DNA of 64,000 bases from an uncultured cyanobacterium (GTDB lineage: Bacteria > Cyanobacteriota > Cyanobacteriia > Cyanobacteriales > Nostocaceae), in contig CAINGU010000093.1 in the NCBI GenBank assembly GCA_903848645.1, forward strand, positions 1-64,000, written 5' to 3'. The translations under genes were made by a program, and so were the position numbers. The notes beneath the pieces were generated by a model. The model was given only the letters and a program-made list of their open reading frames with translations. It did no database searches and had not been told where the DNA came from. Positions 43,059 to 46,900 of this stretch are shown in pieces; position 1 is the stretch's first letter, and every line of letters starts with the position of its first letter.

Positions 43059-44246
43059 TTGAGTTACCATCCAGATGCTATTGCCCCCCACGGTGGAGAG
43101 TTAATTAACCGGGTTGCTTCCTCAGCACAAAGAGAACTATTTCTCTCCAAAGCTGACTTTTTACCGCGTGTGGAACTTGATGAGCGAGCAGTTTCTGATT
43201 TAGAAATGATTGCCATTGGTGGTTTTAGTCCTCTCAAAGGTTTCATGAACCAAGCAGACTACAACCGAGTCGTCACAGAAATGCGGTTAGCTAACGGTAT
43301 TGTCTGGTCAATTCCCATTACACTGTCTGTAACTGAAGAAGTAGCAGCCCCTCTACAAGAAGGCAGTTTGCTGCGTCTGGATAACCCCAGAGGCGAGTTT
43401 ATTGGGGTATTGGAACTGAGTGAAAAGTATACCTACGACAAACAACGAGAAGCCATCAATGTTTATCGTACCGATGAGGCTAAACATCCTGGGGTGCAGG
43501 TAGTATATAACCAAGGTTCTATTAACTTGGCTGGTGATATCTGGTTATTACAACGCGATTCTCATCCCCATTTTCCCAGCTATCAAATTGACCCTGCGGC
43601 CTCACGGGAAATGTTTCGAGAAAAAGGCTGGAAAACGATTGTTGGTTTCCAAACCCGCAATCCTATCCACCGCGCCCATGAATATATTCAAAAGTGCGCG
43701 TTAGAAACCGTAGATGGTCTATTTTTGCACCCATTGGTAGGGGCAACTAAAGAAGATGACATCGCCGCGGATGTGCGGATGCGTTGTTATGAAATTTTAA
43801 TAGAACACTATTACCCCCTAGACAGAGTAATTTTGGCCATTAACCCGGCAGCCATGCGTTATGCAGGGCCTAGAGAAGCAATTTTTCATGCTTTAGTTAG
43901 AAAAAATTACGGGTGTACACATTTTATTGTCGGACGTGATCATGCTGGTGTAGGTGACTATTACGGCACTTATGACGCTCAGTATATCTTCGATGAATTC
44001 GCTCCTGAAGAATTGGGGATTGTACCAATGAAGTTTGAACACGCCTTCTATTGTAAGCGCACCAAACAAATGGCGACAACCAAAACCAGTCCTAGTAAAC
44101 CAGAGGAACGGGTTCACTTGTCGGGAACAAAGGTGAGAGAAATGTTACGTCGGGGTGAGTTACCACCACCAGAATTTTCTCGTCCAGAAGTAGCGGCTGA
44201 GTTAACGCGGGCTATGCGGATTTCACCTGTATTAGTTGAGATTTAG
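43059..44246 (+). CDS. sat: Sulfate adenylyltransferase
   Basis: A 395-residue ATP sulfurylase that makes adenosine 5'-phosphosulfate at the entry to sulfate assimilation. Landmarks: [43 protein letters not shown] (the QxRNPxHRxHE ATP loop), [18 protein letters not shown], and [20 protein letters not shown] at the end. The start is TTG at 43059 with AGGGA nine bases upstream; [13 protein letters not shown] is the standard opening. No other sulfur genes are adjacent. Confidence 0.93.
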
Positions 44247-44319: not shown

Positions 44320-46449
44320 ATGAAACGGCGTAAGTTTTTACAACGGATTAGCGGCTTATTAGCAGCATTGGGGTTAGCTGAAACTCAGTGGTTAAGTTTG
44401 GGAAATCGCTATTACCAAGCTTTAGCACAACCTAACTCGCGTAAGTTGGCATTGTTGATAGGGATTAATCAATATCCACAAAGTCCCACTCTTGCTGGTT
44501 GTGTCAATGATGTGGAATTACAAACAGAACTGTTAATTAATCGTTTTGGCTTTGCAGCATCAGATATTCTGACTTTAACTGAAGAACAAGCCAGTCGAAA
44601 ATTTATTGAAAATGCTTTTTTAGATCACTTGGGTAAGCAAGCTAAACCTGGAGATGTGGTGATTTTCCATTTTTCCGGCTATGGTACTCGCGTTAATTTG
44701 GGAACGGGAATATTACAAAATGCCATAGTTCCTGTTGATGAAAATAACTTACCAGGAACAAAATCTAGAAACTATTTATTAGCAGAAACTCTGTTACTCT
44801 TATTGCGATCGCTCTCTACGAATCAAGTCACAGCAGTATTAGATACCAGTTACTATTATCCTAGTGAATCAAAACCTACAGGTTTGCGAATTCGCACCCG
44901 TCCAGAATTATCATTAGCAAATTTACAAATAGAAGAATTAGAGTTTCTATCACAACTGAAAACTCAGAAATCACTTACTAACAATCCTCTGATTATTAAT
45001 GCTACCTCACAACTAAATCAGCAAGCAGGAGAATTTCTTTTCTCTAATTGGAGTGCGGGATTATTAACTTATGCTTTAACTCAATATTTGTGGGAAACTA
45101 CCCCAGCCACAACCATCCCAGTTTTCCTTTCTAGTGTTGCTACTTCAATGTATCAGCTAGGTGGAAAACAACAACCAAGTTTATTCAGTGAAGCCAAAAA
45201 ATCTCCAAATGCTTTAATCATTGATTACTTCCCTCTTGATAATTTAAAAAGTATTGGCGTAGTTAAAGCCATCGAAGAAGATGGGAAAACAGTCAAGTTA
45301 TGGTTAGGAGGATTACCTCCCCAAGTTCTCACAAATTATGGCGTAAATTCTCACTTAACTTTAGATACCGGAACAGAGTTATTGATTAAATCACGGAATG
45401 GGTTAATAGCTAAAGCCCAATTTACCAATAAAGAAATTACTAACTTACCCCAAGTTGGGCAAATAGTCCAAGAATCTATCCGTGTATTACCTCGGAATAT
45501 TCATATTAATGTGGCTTTAGATCAAGGTTTGGAAAGAATTGAACGGGTAGATGCTACTAGTGTTTTTTCCGGTATTAGTCGCATTGCTAATATTGCCAGC
45601 ATAGAAGAAACCGCTGATTATGTGTTTGGTAAAGTTGCCCAAGTACCCAGCCGTTATGGTCTTTTTTCCCTGGGTGGTGAACTAATTATTAACACTATTG
45701 GGGAAGTTGGGGAAGCCTTGAAGGTGGCTGTACAGCGATTGACACCAAAATTCTCCACTTTGTTAGCATCAAAGTTGTGGCAGTTGACAGAAAATCAAGG
45801 TTCTTCACGTTTACCTGTGAGGGCAACTTTAGAGATTGTTAACAACATTTTACCCCGTGTCTTTATGGTGAAGGACACTTTGAGAACTGACAGTAAAGAT
45901 AACATTTTTCAGACACCTAGCTATGAAGAAATAGCGATGCCGACAATTCCCGTTGGTAGTCGCTGGCAGTATAAAATCGAAAATTTGAGCGATCGCCCGA
46001 TATACTTAATATTAGTGGGTTTAAATAATTCTCAAAATGCCTTCGCTTTTTATCCTTGGGAAGTTTTTTATAAGACAGATATTCCTCCTAGCAAACCCCC
46101 ATTGAGAGAAATCCTAATTCCTCCCGGTAAAACTCTCAAAATTCCAGACAATCAACCTATAGACGGCTGGTTAATTCCCACAGGTTATACTTTTTGTGAA
46201 CACCAAATTACGCTGAGTACAGCACCGTTTACAGAAACTCTCACAGCATTAGCTATCGCTAAATATCCTACCACGGATCAACAAGCTATTGCTCCCATAG
46301 TCAACCCTTTAGAAGTTGCCCAAGCCTTATTACAAGACTTACATAACGCCAGTCAAGTCAAAACTGATATTAATGTTAATCCGACTGATACCTATGTTTT
46401 GGATGTTAATAATTGGGCAAGTTTGAACTTTAGTTTTCAGGTTGTTTAG
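44320..46449 (+). CDS. Caspase-family (orthocaspase) protein with YS active site
   Basis: A 709-residue protein. Residues 1-37 are a Tat-type signal (MKRRKFLQRISGLLAALG), so it is likely exported. Residues about 41-260 form a caspase/peptidase C14 fold (KLALLIGINQYPQSPTLAGC; VIFHFSGYG; AVLDTSYYYPSES). The catalytic His is replaced by Y121 (HFSGYG where HFSGHG is usual) and the Cys by S177 (DTSYY where DCCHS is usual). These are the so-called YS orthocaspases found in some cyanobacteria; they cannot use the usual Cys-His dyad. The C-terminal half has a DUF4384-like beta domain (about 535-630, SRWQYKIENLSDRPIYLILV). Its neighbours are sat and an ArsR regulator. Confidence 0.8.
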   Translation: MKRRKFLQRISGLLAALGLAETQWLSLGNRYYQALAQPNSRKLALLIGINQYPQSPTLAGCVNDVELQTELLINRFGFAASDILTLTEEQASRKFIENAFLDHLGKQAKPGDVVIFHFSGYGTRVNLGTGILQNAIVPVDENNLPGTKSRNYLLAETLLLLLRSLSTNQVTAVLDTSYYYPSESKPTGLRIRTRPELSLANLQIEELEFLSQLKTQKSLTNNPLIINATSQLNQQAGEFLFSNWSAGLLTYALTQYLWETTPATTIPVFLSSVATSMYQLGGKQQPSLFSEAKKSPNALIIDYFPLDNLKSIGVVKAIEEDGKTVKLWLGGLPPQVLTNYGVNSHLTLDTGTELLIKSRNGLIAKAQFTNKEITNLPQVGQIVQESIRVLPRNIHINVALDQGLERIERVDATSVFSGISRIANIASIEETADYVFGKVAQVPSRYGLFSLGGELIINTIGEVGEALKVAVQRLTPKFSTLLASKLWQLTENQGSSRLPVRATLEIVNNILPRVFMVKDTLRTDSKDNIFQTPSYEEIAMPTIPVGSRWQYKIENLSDRPIYLILVGLNNSQNAFAFYPWEVFYKTDIPPSKPPLREILIPPGKTLKIPDNQPIDGWLIPTGYTFCEHQITLSTAPFTETLTALAIAKYPTTDQQAIAPIVNPLEVAQALLQDLHNASQVKTDINVNPTDTYVLDVNNWASLNFSFQVV

Positions 46450-46537: not shown

Positions 46538-46900
46538 TTAAAATACTGTATTTTTACTATGAAAAGCTTTCAAACTTTCAGCTTGCTGTTGTATGCGTTC
46601 ACTAATCCGCTCACACACTAATTCACAAAGCTCAAAAATAATCGGGTCTGCAATCTCATAATAGGCACTCGTCCCTTTCGGTTGACGAAATAAAATCCCC
46701 GCTTGAGTTAAAACTTTCAAATGCTTAGACAGATTGGCCTGTCCCAACCCAGTCGCTTCCCCAAGCTCCATTACATTCATCGCACCTGACTTGAGACAGG
46801 TTAAAATCTGTAAGCGACTTCCTTCCGATAGCACCTTGAAATAGTCAGCCACCGCTGCAATAATAGCTGGATCAGTTGTAGAGGGCTTTGTTTTTGGCAT
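46538..46900 (-). CDS. ArsR-family transcriptional regulator
   Basis: A 120-residue winged-helix regulator. The recognition helix lies in ATGLGQANLSKHLKVL, and the wing is GILFRQPKGTSAYYEI. The metal-binding CxCxxC motif of ArsR/SmtB is absent. Cys35 (in the alpha-2 helix ILTCLKSG), Cys92 and Cys96 (ELCELVCERI, alpha-5) could instead respond to redox or sulfane sulfur, as in BigR/SqrR-type proteins; this is a guess. It reads toward the caspase gene and is divergent from the pentapeptide gene. Confidence 0.85.
   Translation of the reverse strand: MPKTKPSTTDPAIIAAVADYFKVLSEGSRLQILTCLKSGAMNVMELGEATGLGQANLSKHLKVLTQAGILFRQPKGTSAYYEIADPIIFELCELVCERISERIQQQAESLKAFHSKNTVF

Follow-up and report, generated by a model that had tools for sequence, protein, structure and literature searches.

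A pseudo-orthocaspase with a Tyr-Ser dyad in a nostocacean cyanobacterium: constant pocket residues, a drifting dyad and retention in reduced endosymbionts

Introduction

What does a caspase-fold protein do once its catalytic pair has been replaced? The question is raised by a gene in a 64,000-nucleotide stretch of DNA from an uncultured member of the Nostocaceae (contig CAINGU010000093.1; this whole stretch is referred to here as the window). A first-pass annotation, made from the letters alone, took the product to be an exported pseudo-caspase with Tyr and Ser in place of the catalytic His and Cys and with a scaffold, binding, or regulatory role. Pseudo-orthocaspases occur in most cyanobacteria, and photosynthesis is the leading published proposal on their function; those of the YS type are found in nearly all cyanobacteria that have thylakoids, picocyanobacteria excepted (Klemencic et al. 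2019, PMC6426788).

Gene and domain layout

The 709-residue translation contains the motifs HFSGYG (with Y121) and LDTSYY (with S177), and the features of the gene are collected in Table 1. Pfam assigns residues 41-290 to Peptidase_C14 with an E-value of 2.3e-20 and 73.7 bits (cut-off 21.4). An AlphaFold2 model (mc373373d0f47; 59 homologs as input) reached a mean pLDDT of 82.4, and a Foldseek search of the PDB ranked plant metacaspases 9 and 4 first, with Arabidopsis metacaspase 9 (9n3e) matching over 329 columns at an E-value of 7.9e-16; metacaspases were also retrieved by a profile search. As for the p10 half, the C14 match extends through residue 290, and the Foldseek match spans the p10-like part.

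Table 1. Coordinates in the window of the pseudo-orthocaspase gene, its parts and its upstream neighbor
Feature	Coordinates	Strand	Remarks
YS pseudo-orthocaspase CDS	44320..46449	+	709 aa; full-length orthologs found
Putative twin-arginine (Tat-like) signal MKRRKFLQ...ALAQP, aa 1-37	44320..44430	+	R3/R4 invariant; low model confidence over 11-38
Peptidase_C14 fold (p20 plus p10-like half), aa 41-290	44440..45189	+	Pfam and Foldseek
D64, acidic substrate-pocket residue, kept	44509..44511	+	79/79 pseudo, 18/18 His-Cys
Y121 at catalytic His position	44680..44682	+	Alignment to His-Cys relatives
D175, acidic substrate-pocket residue, kept	44842..44844	+	79/79 pseudo, 18/18 His-Cys
S177 at catalytic Cys position	44848..44850	+	Alignment to His-Cys relatives
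C-terminal region, aa 311-709: two beta/alpha modules, DUF4384-like beta-sandwich, C-terminal strands	45250..46446	+	Predicted structure
Putative DUF4384-homologous segment, approximately aa 541-640	45940..46239	+	PF14326 matches of homologs at same place
sat (ATP sulfurylase)	43059..44246	+	Conserved upstream neighbor, ends 73 bp before start codon

Two assignments made at first pass need qualification. The DUF4384-like C-terminal domain finds no Pfam match to PF14326 in the protein itself, even at E-values up to 10, but 46 of 59 homologs match this family (best E 4.7e-20) at their C-terminus, for example at residues 548-640 of L016, and by way of these relatives the segment is probably homologous to DUF4384. 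Likewise, Pfam TAT models gave no useful E-value, but the arginine pair is invariant among pseudo-type relatives and stands in an RRxFLQ sequence, which together suggest a Tat-type signal. TatC was found in the host genome and in three diatom spheroid bodies (endosymbionts discussed below).

The Tyr-Ser dyad

When the protein is aligned with dyad-bearing relatives (L064-L073; HFSGHG...LDSCHSG), Y121 occupies the position of the catalytic His and S177 that of the catalytic Cys, confirming the replacement within a C14 fold that had been read from the letters; the alignment with His-Cys relatives places no alternative His or Cys at the catalytic positions. Sequencing error at the two codons is excluded, since all same-genus orthologs in the alignment (L002-L015, L017) carry the same Tyr and Ser. 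Chance origin is likewise excluded: among 129 family members, YS is the commonest state (89, beside 17 HC and 15 YG).

Where active orthocaspases have a His-Cys dyad, this protein has Y121 and S177. It belongs to a clade apart from the His-Cys forms, its N-terminus carries the arginine pair, and D64 and D175 are kept. The proposed link to cyanobacterial orthocaspases holds: judged by its sequence, the protein is an ordinary member of the YS pseudo-orthocaspases described in 2019, a kind already known.

Constant pocket and drifting dyad

Ninety-seven relatives of the same architecture, 79 pseudo-type and 18 His-Cys, were aligned and placed in a quick tree, which leaves out the dyad columns and has several long branches. 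A branch with SH-aLRT support of 100 parts the 18 His-Cys rows from the 79 pseudo-type rows; because the two groups lie on opposite sides of this one branch, a single loss of the dyad suffices. R3, R4, D64, S119, G120, G122, and D175 are unchanged in all 79 pseudo-type rows, and R3, R4, D64, and D175 are also constant in the 18 His-Cys relatives.

The dyad positions themselves vary. Position 121 is Tyr in 68 of the 79 pseudo-type rows, with Cys (3), His (3), Phe (2), Leu (2), and Lys (1) in the others, and position 177 is Ser in 54, Gly in 24, and Cys in one. The variants found in pseudo-forms include YS, YG, FS, CS, KS, and LG, and the tree requires no fewer than 21 changes of dyad state. At L054, a pseudo-type locus, the pair is Tyr-Cys. 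Three pseudo-clade members of one family (code f39; L112, L120, L121), placed near the clade base in the quick tree, read His-Gly, which may reflect either the order of loss, with Cys going before His, or reversion. A constant pocket and export motif combined with a drifting dyad is the pattern that would be expected of a protein that binds but does not cleave.

Pairwise estimates (NG86) over the full length give dN/dS of 0.14-0.29 within the genus, so that the purifying selection on which the first-pass annotation had wanted evidence is borne out.

Linkage to sat

The ATP sulfurylase gene, sat, lies directly upstream on the same strand at 85 of 111 pseudo-type loci, with a median gap of 124 bp, and at none of 21 His-Cys loci (deduplicated loci with enough upstream sequence); the corresponding Fisher value of 1e-11 overstates the contrast, as the loci are not independent. 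The linkage was seen in Nostocaceae, Crocosphaera, Leptolyngbya-like forms, and the deep loci L235 and L250 (gaps of 16-17 bp), and it has been lost in spheroid bodies. No terminator-like site was found between sat and the pseudo-orthocaspase gene in the window, and a promoter scan around the gene returned sites no more frequently than in shuffles. An ArsR gene at 46538-46900 was dropped as a candidate conserved downstream neighbor, being found beside only a few relatives. Linkage to sat that is specific to the pseudo clade provides a lead on regulation or pathway.

Distribution and persistence in endosymbionts

A match is present in every one of the 60 nearest genomes, which answers the first-pass call for the distribution across related genomes. 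The 5.4-Mb host genome has a single other C14 match (L032, C86:55643-56251), whose motifs, FFSGYG and FDIN, make it a YN pseudo-type; the C14 search detected no His-Cys orthocaspase there. Several congeners of the host do have one. In a sample of 386 genomes from the phylum, 136 had a match and 187 had PsaA/PsaB. Nearly all carriers also have PsaA/B, which are missing or left as weak remnants in only three (G181, G212, G294). Most genomes of family code f36 (presumed picocyanobacteria, judging by size), many of them photosynthetic, are without the gene, and a photosynthetic order-mate of 2.2 Mb with PsaA and PsbA (G399) has no C14 protein; given these absences, the gene is dispensable in some settings.

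The three carriers that lack intact PsaA/B are spheroid bodies, nitrogen-fixing endosymbionts of diatoms; their hosts are Epithemia turgida (NZ_AP012549.1), Rhopalodia gibberula (NZ_AP018341.1), and Epithemia clementina (NZ_CP123991.1). A fourth spheroid-body genome, 'uoEpiScrs1' (NZ_OX373462.1; 82% identity), probably also comes from an Epithemia host. In the first three, PsbA/D and CP43/47 are absent or reduced to short fragments, mostly with stops; in the fourth, the search covered PsbA/D, which are absent. In agreement with this, published work describes EtSB and RgSB as non-photosynthetic (PMC5638926). All four genomes encode a full-length pseudo-orthocaspase, free of stops, that keeps YS and the arginine pair and is the only C14 protein. 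Among the first three, dN/dS is 0.147-0.149 (NG86), beside 0.05-0.17 for the icd, acpP, and fabF neighbors (named from sequence); comparison of these three with the fourth gives 0.119-0.145, and YN00 gives 0.23-0.24 for two spheroid-body pairs. At the spheroid-body loci (L155-L157; L198/L210 in NZ_OX373462.1), the gene lies near icd and acpP-fabF and does not adjoin sat.

Two small genomes, G420 (1,443,806 bp) and G419 (1,491,611 bp), were assigned to UCYN-A1 and UCYN-A2; both lengths agree with UCYN-A1-ALOHA1 and UCYN-A2-CPSB1 (PMC12234771, Table 2). Their orthologs, of 744 and 742 aa (L208, L209), are intact and retain the arginine pair, YS, and the two pocket residues; comparing the two gives a dN/dS of 0.144. 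The gene adjoins sat in both genomes and encodes the only C14 protein of each. PsbA/D are absent from both, and PSI is reported to be retained in UCYN-A (PMC11070190).

Discussion

The reading that we favor, with moderate confidence, is that of an exported protein that binds a basic ligand without cleaving it and has a housekeeping function in the periplasm or thylakoid lumen. The protein would travel, probably already folded, by the Tat route to one of these compartments, and its caspase/metacaspase fold would have lost peptide-bond cleavage while keeping the acidic pocket. In active relatives, this pocket accommodates the side chain of Arg or Lys. Here it would most likely bind a basic partner, either a peptide or a protein, and leave it uncut, with the C-terminal part of approximately 400 residues, including the DUF4384-like beta-sandwich, probably serving as a second interaction surface. 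Such a function of the envelope or lumen would proceed without a photosystem and without an active orthocaspase. A more pointed version, for and against which we see about equal weight, makes it a core housekeeping protein of envelope or lumen that is independent of photosystems and proteolysis, tied to sat, and kept as the only caspase homolog in spheroid bodies and the UCYN-A nitroplast. A role at the thylakoid membrane or in the lumen may apply, as spheroid bodies keep thylakoids (PMC11070190).

The chemistry of the dyad and the company that the gene keeps bear on the alternatives. That Tyr-Ser forms a new catalytic pair, as in a serine-type hydrolase, would agree with YS being the commonest state, but Ser177 has become Gly in 24 of 79 pseudo-type rows, position 121 is Cys, His, Phe, Leu, or Lys in 11, and the states change repeatedly on the tree. 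Because the twin arginines and D64/D175 never vary while the dyad drifts, new chemistry seems highly improbable and binding likely. As a counterpoint to our preferred explanation, Tyr stands at position 121 in 86% of pseudo-forms, and Y121 may itself contribute to function. Decay of a functionless paralog could be argued from the lost dyad, but it is refuted by the selection data, and the full length, the invariant motifs, and retention in genomes of 1.44-1.49 Mb leave it next to no probability. A regulator of active orthocaspases, acting cFLIP-like through heterodimers or substrate competition, would make sense of the shared fold and pocket and has animal and trypanosome precedents (cited in PMC6426788); it is very unlikely, however, as no C14 protein with a His-Cys dyad was detected in spheroid bodies, in UCYN-A, or in the host, which has only the YS protein and the YN form. 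Of the roles suggested at first pass, the evidence favors binding, with the pocket Asp residues invariant and the dyad drifting, and speaks against regulation of active orthocaspases.

Spheroid bodies and UCYN-A amount to natural gene-loss experiments, in which both photosystems or PSII have gone, every other caspase homolog has gone, and this gene has been kept under purifying selection. The proposal made for the family, that oxygenic photosynthesis or a photosystem requires it, draws on a correlated distribution and light-regulated expression (PMC6426788), and on the presence of PsaA/B in nearly all carriers of our sample. The spheroid-body genomes largely refute a photosystem requirement, the gene being intact and constrained where PsaA/B, PsbA/D, and CP43/47 are missing or survive as remnant fragments; it is also intact in UCYN-A without PsbA/D and missing from many photosynthetic f36 genomes, and we regard this proposal as improbable. 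Persistence without a photosystem and as the lone C14 protein therefore makes it unlikely that the protein is required for a photosystem or serves solely to regulate other caspase homologs, and it shifts the question from photosystems and death cascades to housekeeping at the membrane or in the lumen. A part in the oxidative-stress response or a pro-death pathway is the least improbable of the alternatives, although still unlikely. Deletion of sll0148, which encodes SyOC, the only pseudo-orthocaspase of Synechocystis sp. PCC 6803, raised tolerance of H2O2 and left growth normal (PMC7889975); no other knockout is described in the literature covered. This result comes from one strain, whose protein has YG, and obligate endosymbionts that have shed every other caspase homolog retain the gene strongly, which is hard to reconcile with a dedicated death factor. 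The normal growth and greater tolerance of the knockout are also not what an important housekeeping function would lead one to expect. For the housekeeping reading that we prefer, the invariant pocket and drifting dyad make binding without cutting directly testable.

Relation to known systems

The best structural matches to the p20/p10-like half, Arabidopsis metacaspases 9 and 4 (9n3e, 8a53, 6w8r), are active His-Cys proteases that have neither a Tat signal nor a DUF4384-like part. SyOC, like the protein in the window, is a pseudo-orthocaspase; it is the sole C14 protein of its genome and has a YG dyad. It is a probable member of the family, and L125 and L126, of a genus presumed from genome size to be Synechocystis, carry YG; L245, of the same genus code, is without a sat neighbor, unlike the locus in the window. 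In Nodularia spumigena M32, the metacaspase-like gene NSP_23610 lies beside sulfate adenylyltransferase, as here, and shows housekeeping-like expression (PMC4933709). That report concerned a single strain and was read as a general link between metacaspases and sulfur, whereas here the linkage is confined to the pseudo clade, and none of the His-Cys loci examined shows it.

Set against the YS pseudo-orthocaspases of Klemencic et al., the protein in the window shows no difference, with the YS dyad, the Tat-like N-terminal extension, and the conserved acidic pocket common to both. No literature linking spheroid bodies to orthocaspases was found in the part covered, and several of the endosymbiont papers searched make no mention of caspases; persistence in spheroid bodies and UCYN-A is thus likely a new observation. 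New relative to that description (PMC6426788) are the His-Cys sister clade that shares the full-length architecture, the homology of the clade's C-terminus to DUF4384, the retention of the gene by UCYN-A and by endosymbionts that do not photosynthesize, and the clade-wide linkage to sat.
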